The notes under the pieces: generated by a model | Database searches by the model: none | What the model saw: the letters and a program-made list of their open reading frames with translations, nothing else | What the model was told of the DNA's origin: nothing | Part shown: in pieces, positions 5,717 through 14,516 of the stretch | How the letters are laid out: every line of letters starts with the position of its first letter | Position numbering within the stretch: position 1 is the first letter of the stretch | Origin: Syntrophomonas sp. DTU019 | GTDB lineage: Bacteria; Bacillota; Syntrophomonadia; Syntrophomonadales; Syntrophomonadaceae | Length of the DNA stretch: 64,000 nt | Assembly: GCA_913757435.1 (NCBI GenBank) | Contig: CAJYDM010000002.1 | Location: forward strand, 186,001 to 250,000 | Direction of reading: 5' to 3' | Translations under genes and position numbers: made by a program

Positions 5717-8515
5717 TTATAATTCACGGGGTATTTCTTCGATGGTAAATGCCTCAATGACATCGCCTTCTTTGATATCGTTGAAATCTTTGATGCCCAT
5801 GCCGCATTCGTATCCTTCGGCCACCTCTTTAACATCGTCTTTAAATCGTTTTAAAGAGGACAGTTTGCCTTCGTAAATGATGACCCCATCGCGCAATACA
5901 CGCATCTCGGCATTGCGCAGGAATTTGCCCTCATTGACATAGCATCCCGCGATGGTGCCGATATTGGGCACCTTAAAGGTTGCCCGGACTGCGGCCCGGC
6001 CCAGGAATTTCTCCCGGTATTCCGGTTCCAAAAGACCCGCCATGGCCTTTTTGACCTCATCTATGGCCTCGTATATGACCCGGTAGAGGCGCACGTCGAT
6101 CTGCTCATCCTCCGCGTATTTGCGGGCTTTGGAGTCAGGACGCACATTGAAACCGATGATGATGGCATCCGAAGTCGAGGCCAGCATGACGTCGCTTTCG
6201 GTAATGGCTCCCACTCCGGAATGCAGAACAGTGACTTTGACCTCATCGGTGCTGAGCCTCAATAATGAGCCCGATAGAGCCTCCACCGAGCCCTGCACAT
6301 CGCCTTTGATTATAAGGCGCAGTTCTTTCAGCTCGTGTTCCTGGATGTGCTTGAAGAAATCATCCAGGGAGACCCGGCTGCTCTGGCGCTGTTCTTCGAT
6401 CTTCTTCTCGGTTAAACGCAGGCCGATCACTTCTTTGGCCACTTTCTCATCGCACACCTGCACCCGTCCCCCGGCTTCAGGGGGTTCAGACCACCCGGTG
6501 ATCTCCACTGGCATGGAGGGATATGCCAATTCCACCCGCTCGCCGCGATGATTGTTCATAGCCCTCACCTTGCACAGGCTGCTGCCACTCAATATATAAT
6601 CACCGATTTTCAGAGTACCTTTTTGCACCAGGACAGTAGCCACCGGTCCCCGGCCTTTGTCCAGTTTGCTCTCGATTACTACCCCTTCTGCGGCCCGGTC
6701 AGGATTTGACTTAATATCATGCATCTCTGCCACCAGTAACACCATTTCCAGGAGGTTGTCGATGCCCTCCCCGGTCTTGGCCGAAATGGGTACAAAGATG
6801 GTGTCTCCGCCCCATTCCTCGGGAACGATGCTGTATTCGGTGAGCTGCTGCATGACCCGATCCGGATTGGCACCGCTCTTATCAATCTTATTGACCGCCA
6901 CTAAGAAAGGCACCCCTGCGGCCCGAATGTGATTTATGGCTTCAACCGTCTGCGGCATAACACCATCATCGGCTGCCACCACCAGGATGACAAGGTCGGT
7001 CAGGTTGGCACCCCGAGCGCGCATGGCTGTAAATGCCTCGTGGCCGGGGGTATCGATAAAGGTGACCCGGTTGTTGTTGACTTTGACCTGATATGCCCCG
7101 ATATGCTGGGTGATGCCTCCGGCCTCTCCGGAGACCACATCAGAGTGGCGGATTCTATCCAACAGTGAGGTTTTGCCGTGGTCGACATGACCCATAACAG
7201 TGACTACCGGTGGGCGTGACACCAGGCTCTCTTCACTGTCAACAATCTCTTCCAAAATCTTCTCTTCCTCCGACACTGCCTTTTCCACCCTGACCTCATA
7301 GAGGCTGGCCAGGATTTCGGCAGTTTCGAAATCTATAGGCTGGTTGATGGAGGCCATTACCCCCAGCTCCATGAGCCGTTTTACAATGTCCGCCGAACTG
7401 CGCCGCAGCTGGTCAGCCAGTTCTCTGACCGTGATGGGGGCTTCGATGGTAATAACCTCCGGCGGCGGCAGAATGATCTCTTCCTTTTTACGTTTATGCT
7501 TGGTTTTCTTCTGCGGTCGGCTGTAATCCCGTTTGGGCTGATTTTGCCCAAAGCGGTTGTCGCCGGCTTTTTTAGCCGGGGCCTGGCCTGGTTTCGATGC
7601 AGTCCCGGGCTTGCCCCCCCGGGGAGCGCCTTTATCGCCATCCGTGGCCACCTTTTTGGGCCATGGTGCGGCAGCAGGCCGATTGCCCGCTTCCTGCGGC
7701 CGCGGCTGGTTGAAGCGGTCCCGCGCCTGTGGCGCGGACTGGGGCCGATTATGCGAAGGGTGTCCGTCCTGCGGTCTGCCGCCCTGACCCTGTGGCGGAC
7801 GTCCGCCTGATGGCCGCGATCTCGGGGCTTGGCCCGGTGGCTGCGACTGGGGGCGCTGCCCCTGTCCCTGCTGCTGCGACCTGCCAGCCTGGGGCTGAGG
7901 ACGACCTCCCTGGGGCTGACTCTGCCGAGGACGCTGCCCTTGCGGCTGCGGCCTGCCGCCCTGAGCCTGCCCTTGGGACTGGGGGCGGCCGCCTTGGGTT
8001 TGGGGAATGCCTCCCTGAGGCTGCTGCGGCCTGCCCTGAGTCTGTGGCTGAGTTTGCGGACGAGCGCCTTGCTCCTGCCCCTGGGCCTGGGGACGCGCGC
8101 CCGGCTGAACAGGACGGTCAGTCTTTGCTTGGCCCTGCCTGGCTGCCGGCCTATCCTCATTTCTGGGGGTGGGCTGTGGTTGGGCTCCGCCTGCACTGCC
8201 GGCTCCAGGGGGACGCCAGGTTTGGGGAGCACGTTCGGGCTGGGAAGACGGCTCTGGTGGCTGTTTTGGAGCAGCGCCGCGAGAGGGCTGTGGGGCGACA
8301 TCGCCTTTGGTTTTCGGTGGTGCCGGATCGCTCTGCGATCTGGTTTTGCCTTTTTCCGCTTCGGTCAGTTGTTTCCTAACCCAACTGGCCTGAGAATCCT
8401 CCACAGTGCTCATGTGGTTCTTCACATCCAGCCCCATTTTTTGGAGAATATCGACCATTTCTTTACTGGACTTACCCAGTTCTTTTGCTATTTCATGCAC
8501 TCTTATTTTGGCCAT
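5717..8515 (-). CDS. infB: Translation initiation factor IF-2
   Basis: IF-2 is the GTPase that brings initiator tRNA to the 30S subunit and promotes subunit joining. The 932 residues contain an N-terminal IF2_N module (1-52), a long disordered Gln/Gly/Pro/Arg-rich segment (about 58-340), a second IF2_N module (about 356-408), the G domain with GHVDHGKT (442-449), DTPGHEA and NKID, and the C-terminal domains ending in [12 protein letters not shown]. The start overlaps the ylxQ end by 13 bases with GGGGGTGG as a binding site. The linker is longer and more biased than the rest of the protein; the catalytic part looks ordinary. Confidence 0.97.
7496..8344 (-). repeat. Low-complexity Q/G/P/R-rich coding repeat within infB
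   Basis: This part of infB encodes IF-2 residues about 58-340, built from imperfect GGRPQPQ-, QGQ- and PQSQ-like units. The DNA is GC-rich and repetitive, which explains the long spurious reading frames on the opposite strand. IF-2 linkers are often disordered, so this is probably a flexible tether; length variation between strains is likely by slippage or recombination. Confidence 0.7.
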
Positions 8516-8856: not shown

Positions 8857-9123
8857 TTACGAATTCATCCCTGCTATCTGGCTTTCGATGCTGGCCAGAA
8901 CCTCCGCGGGGATATCATGTTCCAGGGCCTTTTGGATGCTTTTTGATTTCACCGCTTTATTGAAGCACTGCAGGTTGGGACACACATAGGCTCCACGCCC
9001 GGCCTTTTTGCCGGTGGTATCCATAAAAATCTCACCTTCCGGCGACCTCACGATGCGGATCAGTTCCTTTTTTATTTTCATCTCCCGGCACCCCACACAC
9101 ATGCGTAGGGGGGGTTTACGCAT
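8857..9123 (-). CDS. rnpM: YlxR-family RNA-binding protein (RnpM)
   Basis: An 88-residue YlxR-family protein: RMCVGCREMKIKKELIRIVR near the N-terminus, then GRGAYVCPNLQCFNKAVKS, the family signature GRGAY(V/I)C. The frame continues upstream inside nusA, but the ATG at 9121-9123 overlaps the nusA TAA (ATGCGTAA), matches the family N-terminus and avoids a 116-base overlap. The family has been linked to RNase P RNA binding in Bacillus (name RnpM); that role is transferred, not seen here. Cys residues in CVGC and CPNLQC could coordinate metal, but this is unproven. Confidence 0.92.
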   Translation of the reverse strand: MRKPPLRMCVGCREMKIKKELIRIVRSPEGEIFMDTTGKKAGRGAYVCPNLQCFNKAVKSKSIQKALEHDIPAEVLASIESQIAGMNS

Positions 9124-10270
9124 CCTGACCATTTTCCTCATTCTCCATGTCTTCACCGGATTCCATGTCTTCGTCGAACTCCACGTCTTCCTCGAATGGG
9201 ACTTCATCCTGGTCGGGGTCATAATCATCAAATTCTGCCAGGTATTGGCTTTCGTTCTTGATGTCTACCTTCCAACCGGTCAGCTTGGCAGCCAGACGGG
9301 CATTCTGGCCTTCCTTGCCGATGGCCAGGGAGAGCTGGTAATCGGGTACTATCACCCGGGCCACTTTGTCTTCCTCACTGGGAATGACATTTATTACCTT
9401 GGATGGACTCAAAGCGTTGGCAATAAAGCGCCTGGGATCCTTATCATACCGAATGATATCGATCTTCTCCCCAGCCAGTTCGGATACTACATTCTGCACC
9501 CTGAAACCGCGTGGTCCCACGCAAGCCCCTACCGGATCCACCTTGTCATCATAGGAATGCACCGAGATCTTGGATCTGGAGCCGGCCTCCCGGGCAATGC
9601 TGCGGATCTCCACTATCCCATCGTAGATTTCGGGAACCTCCAGTTCAAACAGCCTCTTCAAGAAGGATGGGTGCGCCCTGGACAAGAAGATGTTAGGACC
9701 CTTGGGGGTATCCTTAACTTCATAGATATAAGCCTTGATGCGCTGCCCTACCTCGTATCTCTCTTGAGCAATCTGGTCGGAAGGCAGCATGATGCCTTCG
9801 GTGCGGCCCAGGCTGATATAGAGGGTCTTAGCCTCGAGGCGCTGCACCGTACCGGTTACGATCTCGCCTTCTCTTTCCCGGAACTCCTGGTAAATCAGGC
9901 TCCGTTCCGCTTCACGCAGCTTCTGTATTACTACCTGCTTGGCGGTCTGTGCGGCGATGCGCCCGAAATTGGTGGGGGTAGCCTCAACATAGACCATGTC
10001 TTCCACCCGGCATTCGGGGTAGAGTTCCTGGGCTTCGGGCAGGGTTATCTCCAGGCGTGGATCTTCTACCTGATCCACCACCCTCTTCTGGGAGTAAACA
10101 TGCACATCCCCGCTCCTCTCATCGAACTCCACGCTCACATTCTGAGCTACGCCGAAGTTCTTCTTATAAGCGGTATTTAAAGCCGATTTGATGGCATCTA
10201 TAAGGGCTTCTTTAGGAATCCCCCGTTCCCTCTCGATCTCATGTAGGGCTTGGATCAACTCGTTGGACAT
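9116..10270 (-). CDS. nusA: Transcription termination/antitermination factor NusA
   Basis: NusA binds RNA polymerase and nascent RNA and stimulates pausing and intrinsic termination. The 384 residues show the N-terminal polymerase-binding domain, an S1 domain, then two KH domains ([20 protein letters not shown] and [19 protein letters not shown]). The last 30 or so residues are very acidic (Asp/Glu-rich). No C-terminal acidic repeat domains of the E. coli type are present, as usual in Firmicutes. It lies 13 bases after rimP and overlaps rnpM by eight bases. Upstream of rimP there is an intrinsic terminator within the leader, suggesting autoregulation. Confidence 0.97.
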
Positions 10271-10283
10271 GGTGTTTCCTCCT

Positions 10284-10739
10284 CTAAAAGTCTGGGTGTA
10301 ATCTGATTATCGAGATCATATCACGTGGTATGGTCACCAGGTGGTTTTCCCGGTTTATTATGCTGATTTCTGTAGGGCTGAAACCCTGCAGAGTGCCCAC
10401 CATTTTGCGCGGTCCTTCATAAGCCTGCACAGTCTTAAGTCTGATGGTCTGTCCAGTAAAACGCTGCAAGTCGCGGTCGGTCTTTATGACCCGATTCAAC
10501 CCTGGCGAGGATACTTCCATATGGTCGTACTCGATCTCAGCCTCGTCGATGAGGCCTTTGACAGCCCGGCTGGCCTGGCTGCAGGCTTCCAGGTCGATGC
10601 CCTCTTCACGATCTATGTAAAGCCTCAGGATGCGGTCCCCGGCTTCACGCTGATATTCAATCTCCACCAATTCAAACCCCAGTTTTTCCAGGGGCCTTTG
10701 CAGCAGCGCCTCTAACCGGCTGGCTTTGTCCGTATTCAT
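10284..10739 (-). CDS. rimP: Ribosome maturation factor RimP
   Basis: RimP assists 30S maturation. Family motifs include LGFELVEIEYQRE, LRLYIDREEGIDLEAC and EVSSPGLNRVI, in a 151-residue protein of normal length. The ATG at 10737-10739 lies eight bases after GGAGG; the upstream TTG that opens the longer frame is inside that binding site and was rejected. It is the first gene of the rimP-nusA-rnpM-ylxQ-infB transcript, preceded by a promoter and a terminator-like hairpin. Confidence 0.95.
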   Translation of the reverse strand: MNTDKASRLEALLQRPLEKLGFELVEIEYQREAGDRILRLYIDREEGIDLEACSQASRAVKGLIDEAEIEYDHMEVSSPGLNRVIKTDRDLQRFTGQTIRLKTVQAYEGPRKMVGTLQGFSPTEISIINRENHLVTIPRDMISIIRLHPDF

Positions 10740-10777
10740 ACAATTTTCCTCCAAGTAGGCCTGAGCCCGGCATCATA

Positions 10778-10807
10778 CAATAGAAAAAGTGGGCAAAGAA
10801 CCCACTT
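10778..10807 (-). terminator. Intrinsic terminator in the rimP-nusA leader (candidate attenuator)
   Basis: On the transcribed strand, AAGTGGG and CCCACTT (10801-10807 and 10787-10793) form a seven-pair stem with a seven-base loop, followed by TTTCTATT. The U-tract is broken, which predicts a weak, factor-sensitive terminator. It lies downstream of a good promoter (10837-10866) and upstream of rimP, so transcripts from that promoter must read through it. It may also end transcripts from polC. Confidence 0.75.
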
Positions 10808-10836
10808 GAGTAACATACTATTACCAGCTCATTAAG

Positions 10837-10866
10837 AGTATAACACAATTTCAAGTTTCTATTCAA
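10837..10866 (-). promoter_or_regulatory. Sigma-A promoter for rimP-nusA-infB
   Basis: TTGAAT (10861-10866), an 18-base spacer and TATACT (10837-10842) on the transcribed strand, in the short gap between polC and rimP. Transcription would begin near 10830, leaving a leader of about 90 bases that contains the terminator hairpin before the rimP start. Confidence 0.65.
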
Positions 10867-10901: not shown

Positions 10902-13900
10902 TCAGGCAAACAAATTTAATTGCGCGCTCTCCGGCAGTCCCTCCAGGCAGCCATATTTGCGCAGCATCTCCAAAGTGGTCTTGTTGAGGTGGGTGCGCAT
11001 CTGCATCTCCTCAATCGATAAAAAGGGTGTGTCGCCGCGCAGTTTGACGATGCTCTGGGCGGCTGCTTCACCTACCCCGGGAAGGGCCGCAAATGGCAAT
11101 AAGAGGCCGTTGCCCTTGATCTGGAAGCGGCTGGCGTGGGACTCATAGATATCCACCGGATAAAAACAAAAGCCGCGCGCATACATTTCCAGGGCTACCT
11201 CCAGAATCGGCAAGAGCTTCTTATCCTTACCCTCTGCCTGCTGTCCTTTTTTCTCGATCTCCTGAATGCGTTTTAAGATGGGGTTATAACCTCCCAACAT
11301 GCTCTCGATCTCCATGTCCTGTGCGCGCACACTGAAAAAACTGGCATAGAAAGCCAGGGGGTAATGGACTTTGTACCAGGCTATGCGGAAGGCCATAGTC
11401 ACATAAGCCGCAGCATGAGCCTTGGGGAACATGTATTTGATCTTGCGGCAAGAATCCACATACCAACGGGGGGTATCGCAGCTGAGCATGATAGCTTCCT
11501 CTTCATGATCTACCCCTTTGCCTTTGCGCACCTTTTCCATTATCTTAAAGGCCTGCTTCGGTTCCATCCCCAACTGAATCAGATAGAGCATGATGTCGTC
11601 ACGGGTGCAGATAACATCTTTCAACTGCGCCTGCCCGGACTGCACCAGTTCCTGAGCATTGTTGAGCCATACATCGGTGCCGTGAGAAAGCCCGCATATC
11701 CTGATCAGTTCAGACATGGTAGAGGGACGGGTAGTCTCCAAAATCTGTCGCACGAAACGAGTGCCGAACTCGGGGATGCCAAAGGTGCCCACCGTGCTGT
11801 TGATGACCCCGGCATCCAAGCCCAAGGGTTCTAGACCAGAGAAGAGCTTCATGGTAGTCTTGTCCCCCAGCCTGACCGAATTGGCTTTGACACCGGTAAG
11901 ATCCTCCAGTTGCTTAATGACGGTGGGATCGTCATGGCCCAGAATATCCAGCTTCACCAGTTGATCACCGATGGCATGGTATTCAAAATGAGTGGTGATT
12001 ATCCCCGATTCTTTGTTGTCGGCAGGGTGCTGCAGGGGGGTAAATTCCAATATGTCACGGTCCTTGGGCACCACAATCAGTCCTCCAGGGTGCTGGCCGG
12101 TGGTTTTTCTAACCCCGGTAATGCCTTGAACCAGGCGGTTGATCTCGGAATTCTTGTAATTCAGGTCGCGCTCTTCGCTGTATTTTTTCACATAGCCGAA
12201 GGCGGTCTTGGTGGCGATGGTTTGAACTGTTCCAGCCCGGAAGACATTCTCTCTGCCGAACAGTTCCTCCACATACTGATGAGCCCGGGACTGGTATTCC
12301 CCGGAGAAATTCAGGTCAATATCCGGGACTTTGTCGCCTTCAAATCCCAGAAAGGTCTCAAAGGGAATATCAAACCCGTCCCGCAACAATTCCTGGCCGC
12401 AACGGGGACAGTTTTTATCCGGCAGGTCAGCGCCACAGGAGACCGCCGTCGAAGCAAATTCGGAATACGCACATGCCGGGCACAGGTAATGCGGCGCCAG
12501 TGGATTTATCTCGGTTATGCCGGTCAGATAAGCCACTAGAGATGAGCCCACCGAGCCGCGTGAGCCTACCACATAACCGTCCTGGTTGGACTTATTAACC
12601 AGCTTATGAGCGATCAGGTACAACACACTGAAGCCGTGTTCGGTAATGGATTGCAGTTCTTTTTTGGTGCGATTCTCAACCACCTCGGGCAACGGATTGC
12701 CGTAAATCTCTGCGACCCGCTTCCAGGCCAGGGCAGTTATCTCTTCACTGGCGCTCTCGATTTGAGGAGGATAAAAGCCATCCGGGACCGGCTGCACAGC
12801 CTCGATCATAGCGTTGACCCGGTGCGGGCCATCGATTACTACCTCCCGGGCGGCATCTTCCCCCAGATAGCTGAACTCATCCAGCATTTCCTGGGTGGTG
12901 CGCAGGTAGAGGGGCTTGTCGGATTCGGCATCATCGTAACCCTGGCCGGCTTGAATGATGGTGCGCAGGATGCCGTCATGGGGATCTAAGACATGCACAT
13001 CCCCGGTAGCTACTACTGGTTTGCCCAGTTCCCTGGCCAGCTCGATGATGCCCCGGTTTAAGTCCATGAGGGCCTTGTCATCGGCCACCAGCCCCTTATG
13101 AACCAGGAACTCATTGTTGCTTAATGGCTGTATCTCCAGGTAATCATAGAAGTCTGCGATACGGTGCAGTTCCTGTGCGGAAGCCCGGTTCAAAAAGGCT
13201 TGGTAGACCTCCCCGGCCTGACAGGCGCTGCCTACCAGCAACCCCTGACGCAATCGCTGCAGCTCTGCTCTGGGGATGCGGGGCCGGTTCTTATAAAAAT
13301 ACTGGAGATAGGAAAGGGTGATCAGAGTGTAGAGGTTTTTCAAACCCTGAGCATTCCGGGCCAGGATAATCACATGGTAAGCCCGCTCCTTGAGGTCATT
13401 TTCAAACAGGTAGCCCTCCACTCCGTAGATTACTTTGATGCGGTGCTTACGCGCGGCATTATAAGCATCGGGGAAGGCCTGCACACAGCCGTGGTCGGTT
13501 ATGGCGATGGCGGGATGGCCCCATTTAGCAGCCCGGGCCACCAACTCCCCCACTTCAGCCAGTCCATCCACAGCACTCATCTTGGTATGGGCGTGCAGTT
13601 CCAGCCTTTTTACCGGGGCTTCATCGAGCCGCTGCGGGGCCTCTATGTTGTCAATAGCAACCGCGAACAGGACGGCCTCTTTGGCATAAGGGTCGTAACG
13701 CACATCCCCGGCGGCTGACATCCACTGCCCTAGGGAGGCTTTATCATCTTCGGGTTTATCAAGAAATTGTTTTACTATCACGCTTCCGGAAAAATCGGTC
13801 AGATAGTATTCCACCGCGCAGCGCCCGCCGCGAAGGGGTCGCATTTCCTTTTGCCATAGCTGCCCTTCCACCTTGATATTCTGCTGACCTTCCTGGAGAT

Positions 13901-14516
13901 CGGCCATCCTCACCGGGGAGAATTTTCGCCTGGCTCTGGCAGCAGAGACGGTTTTTTTGCCTGCTCTTGCAGTAGTGTCATAGTTAAGCACCTGGATTTC
14001 AGCTACTGGGATCAGGGTTGGGGCAGGTCCCTGGTTTATCTGAAGGGACACCTCCAGCTTGACCCGACAAATGACCATGATTCCATAATTATCGCGGAAC
14101 CAGGCTGAAATCCGCTGGCAACATCCATTCTCCAGCAGTTGGTTATAGTATCCTTCATTGTCAATGATGAGATCCAGGCGGTGATTCTCCACCGCCCATG
14201 ACACTGATTGGGCATTCGGTCCCAAAAGCGGCATTATGTCTTGCCAGCGTTCCCCCACCATATCCCGCAGGGTAGCATCATCGCTGCACTGAACGCACAA
14301 TTCCACCTGCAGGCCATCCATAAGACCCTGCAGGTGCTGTATGGTATCTTCCAGGAGGCTGGTCTTTACGGGCTGCCTAACCTCAACCGACAGGCGCCAT
14401 AATTTCTGGGAAGGATAAACCTCCACCCGGTTTATAACAGCACCATGCCAGGCCTCGGCCTGGCAGAATCCTGCATGCTTATGTAACAGCGCAAAGAAAT
14501 CTGCGCTCGACTCCAA
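10902..14516 (-). CDS. polC: DNA polymerase III alpha subunit, PolC type, lacking the exonuclease domain
   Basis: PolC is the main replicative polymerase of Firmicutes. Order seen: N-terminal domain (1-200), OB domain (about 205-290), PHP domain (about 305-515), then the polymerase core with a zinc module (C679, C682, C694, C703, C706), the catalytic PDIDLNF (731-737) and the C-terminal helix-hairpin-helix part. Canonical PolC has a DnaQ-like 3'-5' exonuclease of about 190 residues inserted in the PHP domain. Here KVIYGVEGYLFEND (361-374) runs straight into HVIILARNAQGLKNL, so the insert is absent and the protein is 1204 rather than about 1440 residues. PHP metal ligands (ELHAH, ITDHG, E367, H381, GDVH) remain. 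The start is TTG with a GGAG four bases ahead, so the exact start is uncertain. Confidence 0.95.
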   Translation of the reverse strand: MESSADFFALLHKHAGFCQAEAWHGAVINRVEVYPSQKLWRLSVEVRQPVKTSLLEDTIQHLQGLMDGLQVELCVQCSDDATLRDMVGERWQDIMPLLGPNAQSVSWAVENHRLDLIIDNEGYYNQLLENGCCQRISAWFRDNYGIMVICRVKLEVSLQINQGPAPTLIPVAEIQVLNYDTTARAGKKTVSAARARRKFSPVRMADLQEGQQNIKVEGQLWQKEMRPLRGGRCAVEYYLTDFSGSVIVKQFLDKPEDDKASLGQWMSAAGDVRYDPYAKEAVLFAVAIDNIEAPQRLDEAPVKRLELHAHTKMSAVDGLAEVGELVARAAKWGHPAIAITDHGCVQAFPDAYNAARKHRIKVIYGVEGYLFENDLKERAYHVIILARNAQGLKNLYTLITLSYLQYFYKNRPRIPRAELQRLRQGLLVGSACQAGEVYQAFLNRASAQELHRIADFYDYLEIQPLSNNEFLVHKGLVADDKALMDLNRGIIELARELGKPVVATGDVHVLDPHDGILRTIIQAGQGYDDAESDKPLYLRTTQEMLDEFSYLGEDAAREVVIDGPHRVNAMIEAVQPVPDGFYPPQIESASEEITALAWKRVAEIYGNPLPEVVENRTKKELQSITEHGFSVLYLIAHKLVNKSNQDGYVVGSRGSVGSSLVAYLTGITEINPLAPHYLCPACAYSEFASTAVSCGADLPDKNCPRCGQELLRDGFDIPFETFLGFEGDKVPDIDLNFSGEYQSRAHQYVEELFGRENVFRAGTVQTIATKTAFGYVKKYSEERDLNYKNSEINRLVQGITGVRKTTGQHPGGLIVVPKDRDILEFTPLQHPADNKESGIITTHFEYHAIGDQLVKLDILGHDDPTVIKQLEDLTGVKANSVRLGDKTTMKLFSGLEPLGLDAGVINSTVGTFGIPEFGTRFVRQILETTRPSTMSELIRICGLSHGTDVWLNNAQELVQSGQAQLKDVICTRDDIMLYLIQLGMEPKQAFKIMEKVRKGKGVDHEEEAIMLSCDTPRWYVDSCRKIKYMFPKAHAAAYVTMAFRIAWYKVHYPLAFYASFFSVRAQDMEIESMLGGYNPILKRIQEIEKKGQQAEGKDKKLLPILEVALEMYARGFCFYPVDIYESHASRFQIKGNGLLLPFAALPGVGEAAAQSIVKLRGDTPFLSIEEMQMRTHLNKTTLEMLRKYGCLEGLPESAQLNLFA

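Follow-up and report, generated by a model that had tools for sequence, protein, structure and literature searches.

A conserved terminator hairpin in the rimP-nusA leader of a Syntrophomonas genome: a candidate NusA-responsive attenuator linked to nusA

Organization of the locus

The window—the whole stretch of 64,000 nucleotides analyzed here, from Syntrophomonas sp. DTU019—carries on its minus strand, in this order, polC, a promoter-like site, a short leader, a hairpin, a U-tract, a Shine-Dalgarno sequence, rimP, nusA, ylxR, a gene for an L7Ae-type protein, and infB; all features described below lie on that strand. NusA is essential and general, and the setting of its level is therefore a basic question. 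The upstream co-directional gene, polC (10902–14516, stop at 10902), is identified by Pfam as encoding a PolC-type polymerase. The rimP gene (10284–10739, ATG at 10739; RimP_N 67 bits, RimP C-terminal domain 37.5 bits) has a Shine-Dalgarno sequence GGAGG, read from the sequence at 10748–10752, 8 nt before its ATG. nusA (9116–10270, ATG at 10270) encodes 384 amino acids with Pfam NusA_N, S1, and KH domains, and YlxR, the L7Ae-type protein, and IF2 are also Pfam-confirmed in the operon. Within infB (7600–8300), Q, G, R, and P abound in the long stretch before the GTPase domain, where PQGGRPQ-like units recur.

Terminator hairpin and interrupted U-tract

Folding and conservation both define a terminator hairpin, AAGUGGGU-UCUUU-GCCCACUU, at 10787–10807, which forms the core of the element discussed below as the rimP-leader or nusA-leader. 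The preliminary description had counted a seven-pair stem; the stem is there, with seven Watson-Crick pairs, and reaches eight when the closing U.G is counted. It is followed at 10778–10786 by the U-tract UUUCUAUUG, interrupted by a C and an A, and then by rimP and nusA as the preliminary description had said, with 47 nt between the stem end (10787) and the rimP ATG (10739). The predicted folding energy is -11.1 kcal/mol (z -4.6; 0 of 200 shuffles equal it), and by itself the hairpin is not clearly weak.

The pattern GTGGGN{3,10}CCCACTYTTTCT has a single match genome-wide, at the rimP leader, and the reversed control pattern has none. Terminator scores are weakly above chance, with 19 sites in 11 kb against 11.1 +- 3.5 in shuffles. 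Consensus scans alone are insufficient here; the element stands out from chance because it is conserved across relatives.

Other structures were considered and rejected. No antiterminator or riboswitch is predicted on an alignment of 41 leaders, for which RNAalifold gives the terminator stem alone. A long-range stem joining the 5' leader to the bases before the Shine-Dalgarno sequence is predicted in the window only (z -1.75; 13 of 200 shuffles equal it), and a small leader hairpin is another prediction confined to it. Inspected by eye, neither structure persists in relatives. Searched against Rfam, the window gives no match at gathering score; the weaker matches recorded all fall well short of theirs.

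Promoter-like site, leader, and conservation in close relatives

A sigma-70-type promoter-like site, TTGAAT-N18-TATACT with a TG before the -10 box, lies at 10837–10866 and is recognized from the sequence together with the leaders of relatives; the -10 box predicts a transcription start at about 10833–10830. This is the site at which a promoter had been proposed, and the coordinates given for it hold. Its consensus score is at chance level: the 11 kb scanned contains 8 such sites, where shuffled sequence gives 7.5 +- 2.7. The site is corroborated by its conservation. For this comparison 59 loci were found via NusA, of which 40 from Syntrophomonadaceae and near relatives, with the window, make up 41 leaders (L001–L042 without the truncated L015); L043–L060, from other groups, were handled apart. 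The 41 leaders are mostly labeled Syntrophomonas or Syntrophomonadaceae, with some Thermosyntropha or just Bacillota/Firmicutes.

The comparison of leaders that had been suggested as a check places the hairpin at a fixed distance from the -10 box, which lies 30–36 nt before GTGGG in all 41 leaders. The -10 box reads TATACT in 32 of the 41, and TTGAAT stands at a spacing of 18 in 26. A TG is also found in 41/41, which is not independent evidence because the script used always returns a best -10 box and favors TG. GTGGG, CCCACT, and the following TTTCT-N-TTG are invariant in 39/39 leaders, with one T/C stem-base position between them; for this column count the more divergent L040 and L041 had been set aside beforehand. 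The flanks of the hairpin diverge among leaders while the core is kept. Covariation carries little information, as one of the eight stem pairs changes on both sides in the 41-leader alignment.

Upstream of the hairpin, the leader contains an AAUA block (10819–10822), found at the matching position in 31/41 leaders against a shuffle mean of 10.2 and a maximum of 18 (200 shuffles), counted over related sequences. In related leaders the block lies 16–19 nt before GTGGG, and no structure of its own is predicted across the alignment (window 10833–10808). It may resemble the mycobacterial RNA bound by the NusA KH domains, a likeness that we keep as a lead.

Distribution within and beyond the phylum

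In a sample of the same phylum (31 genomes, 30 loci found via NusA_N), 27 of the 30 loci carry GTGG..CCAC some 500–700 nt before nusA; two others (L068, L077) have CCCGC variants, and L084 has none. Across the phylum, AGTGGGN{2,8}CCCACTYTTT occurs in 292 of 398 genomes, against 14/398 for the reversed control as read from the table, and the remaining 106 are without this exact pattern. All 30 loci among the matches listed lie directly upstream of rimP-nusA; these include several per family and are not a random draw, and L147 and L159 match in antisense only.

For sampling beyond the phylum we used a strict core, G-N-GGG..C-Y-Y-N-C with a pair at N and at least five T in the next nine bases. 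It was defined after viewing the hairpins of the own phylum and does not capture looser forms (L075; L108, L111, L117). Upstream of nusA it is found in 27 of 29 own-phylum loci (the window left out), 19 of 27 usable Nitrospirota-seeded loci (absent from 8), and 22 of 29 Verrucomicrobiota-seeded loci (absent from 7), and it becomes rarer among Pseudomonadota-seeded loci (9/30, absent from 21) and in the phylum of G034 (3/30, absent from 27); the coding control stretch gives 0/145. These counts cover related, non-independent sequences, and the phylum names of the seeded sets are inferred from the seed loci. Three Nitrospirota-seeded loci of 30 (L249, L266, L267) were dropped for short upstream sequence or no nusA match, and three samplings, the own phylum's (31 to 30) among them, had one genome each without a NusA locus.

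A looser core, searched in antisense over the same stretch, matches in 7/29 own-phylum, 3/30 Pseudomonadota-seeded, 1/29 Verrucomicrobiota-seeded, and 0/30 G034-phylum loci. Such antisense matches are expected because the stem is near-palindromic; the 118 coding stretches of those four sets contain no match to the looser core.

In the phylum of G034, 9 of 29 scanned loci (L191–L195, L197–L199, L202) have a terminator-like hairpin at about -570 from nusA with other stems, AGCAAGACU..GGUCUUGCU together with UUCUUAUUGA, and AAAGGAAGGC..GCCUUCCUUU. It looks as if the stem sequence had been replaced within the lineage.

Stem sequence and position of the U-tract break

Among the 80 strict hairpins, 75 have U as the second base of GUGGG, paired with A in 51 cases and with G in 24; the other five have C-G. 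That the 5' arm stays the same while its partner varies hints at recognition of the 5'-arm sequence but does not prove it, because U.G is also an ordinary intermediate between U-A and C-G, and these genomes share ancestry. The same arrangement offers a direct mutational handle on sequence recognition.

The U-tract also differs in a regular way. In 22 of 27 own-phylum hairpins and 40 of 41 Syntrophomonadaceae-type leaders, the fourth base of the tract, counted from two bases past the partner arm CCCRC, is something other than U. Every one of the 50 strict hairpins from the Pseudomonadota-, Verrucomicrobiota-, and Nitrospirota-seeded sets has U there, as do 3/3 of the G034 phylum. A U-tract broken this early is characteristic of the phylum to which the window belongs.

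Linkage to nusA and alternative explanations

We read the element as a factor-stimulated attenuator of the rimP-nusA-infB operon by which NusA would limit its own production, and we put the probability of this reading at roughly 80%. The preliminary description had held that the leader arrangement would allow such feedback; the existence of the known rimP-leader and the hairpin's persistence beside nusA both lend this support.

Gene neighborhoods suggest that the element follows nusA, staying there in lineages where no rimP was found. The hairpin lies no more than 200 nt from nusA in 22 of the 29 Verrucomicrobiota-seeded genomes, and a RimP_N profile that matches 10 of 14 control genomes matches 0 of these 29, though such a search could miss a divergent RimP. 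In Pelagibacterales the hairpin stands 70–72 nt upstream of nusA in all four usable loci (L057 starts at nusA and is unusable), IF2 comes after nusA in L049, and a search of one such genome, of unstated completeness, gave no RimP_N. Two near-identical hairpins make the same point: that of L250 precedes Pfam-confirmed rimP and nusA, and that of L246 lies 52 nt before nusA with no rimP between them at the locus. Apparently, then, rimP is not the gene that the element follows.

A separate observation concerns L084 (genome G009) of the own phylum, which has an MgtC-family gene before nusA and in which no RimP match and no leader hairpin or core was found; some lineages, then, do without the element.

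Because the element persists beside nusA in genomes that gave no RimP match, the candidates for its regulator reduce to NusA (or IF2), and an attenuator governed by RimP, IF2, YlxR, or NusG instead of NusA seems unlikely to us. The infB gene follows nusA in all 20 Verrucomicrobiota regions fetched (of 22 hairpin-positive genomes; L187 and L095 were left out), so gene linkage does not separate NusA from IF2, for which we know of no termination activity. Naville & Gautheret 2010 (PMC2965389) propose NusA as the best-candidate regulator of the rimP-leader and leave RimP possible; the Verrucomicrobiota-seeded genomes and L246 speak against RimP. NusG-dependent terminators of B. subtilis also carry interrupted U-tracts, according to PMC8060035, but NusG is absent from the operon genes identified and would give no feedback on nusA.

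Somewhat less probable again is that the hairpin merely terminates polC, with the promoter 3' of polC incidental or unused. The hairpin does lie 95 nt past the polC stop, and polC adjoins in 36 of the 41 relatives' loci; however, the -10 box is upstream of the hairpin and conserved with it. Among the 30 phylum-wide matches listed, polC is within about 1.5 kb in 16 and is not found at that distance in 14 (two of them on contigs cut just upstream). In L162 (PMT-type protein) and L246 (FKBP-type protein) the upstream gene is divergent, so the hairpin there cannot terminate it, and in Pelagibacterales the gene before the hairpin encodes, in the three loci read, a TrmB-type methyltransferase. Judged by these neighborhoods, polC is not the gene that the element follows, and the ending of polC transcripts, which the preliminary description had also ascribed to the stem, would be at most a side effect.

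To see in the inverted repeat not an RNA hairpin but an operator, bound as DNA by a dimeric repressor, is highly improbable, for although both arms are conserved in sequence beyond pairing and the repeat with its YTTT tail often matches both strands, the spacer between GUGGG and its partner varies (4 to 8 in the own phylum, 4 to 11 in the Nitrospirota-seeded set), U.G partners are frequent (24/80), and the repeat is downstream of the predicted start.

Proposed mechanism

The anatomy of the element, its conservation, and its linkage to nusA are direct observations; for NusA dependence and feedback in this organism we reason by analogy with B. subtilis. On the attenuator reading, RNA polymerase would start near 10830 and make a leader of about 23 nt, after which the GUGGG..CCCAC hairpin and the imperfect U-tract would be transcribed. 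Plentiful NusA would help the hairpin form in the exit channel, leading to termination near 10780; with NusA scarce, polymerase would read through into rimP-nusA-infB. No antiterminator RNA would be required.

Generic stimulation by NusA does not explain the strong conservation of the stem sequence. We offer, tentatively and with rather less than even odds in mind, a fuller account: the GUGGG arm may be read by NusA or the NusA-polymerase complex on nascent RNA, and the nusA-leader may be ancestral to several phyla and independent of rimP. The U-tract break of the Bacillota might then tune the need for NusA, and the AAUA block of Syntrophomonadaceae might be a second contact, possibly with the KH domains.

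Comparison with known systems

The element and its mechanism are already known, and the window is a well-resolved further member of the rimP-leader. What appears to be new, from comparison of the sequences, is the link of the element to nusA independent of rimP and the phylum-typical U-tract break; we found no report of either in the open-licence literature, in searches not worded for either. Nor did the open-licence literature searched contain a later explanation of the conserved rimP-leader stem.

Mondal 2016 is reportedly the primary paper on the autoregulatory attenuator of B. subtilis nusA. In that organism, as the review PMC12288461 describes it, NusA is autoregulated by termination in its own leader, so that NusA-stimulated termination limits nusA; the preliminary description had pointed to autogenous attenuation of this operon in Bacillus. 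What is demonstrated there would apply to the window by inference. The same review and PMC8060035 report broken U-tracts as a feature of NusA-dependent terminators. An interrupted U-tract and/or a weak hairpin would mark autoregulation of the B. subtilis type, and the window has the interrupted U-tract. For E. coli, PMC2965389 cites repression of the operon by NusA.

The gammaproteobacterial rimP leader of Rfam (RF01770) occupies the same genomic place and gives a weak same-strand match in the window, scoring 13.5 bits where the gathering score is 47. In contrast to that family, no second upstream terminator or antiterminator appears in the leader alignment.

The closest likeness is to the rimP-leader of PMC2965389, which places rimP at the top of its ranking of genes with a predicted attenuator and takes the conserved stem to call for a protein that reads it. 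Like the rimP-leader as described there, the element of the window is a terminator with a G-rich 5' arm, a C-rich 3' arm, and a T-stretch, and it lies 5' of the rimP-nusA-infB operon. The described stem, GGGc(...)gCCC, corresponds to GGGU-loop-GCCC in the window, with U.G instead of c-g; the distance from the gene start, 47 nt, falls within the described 4–130 nt; and, as described, there is no larger conserved structure or antiterminator, the stem standing alone on 41 leaders. Unlike the element outlined in that text, the core seen in relatives is longer (AGUGGG..CCCACU) and also occurs right beside nusA without an intervening rimP; this favors the name nusA-leader.
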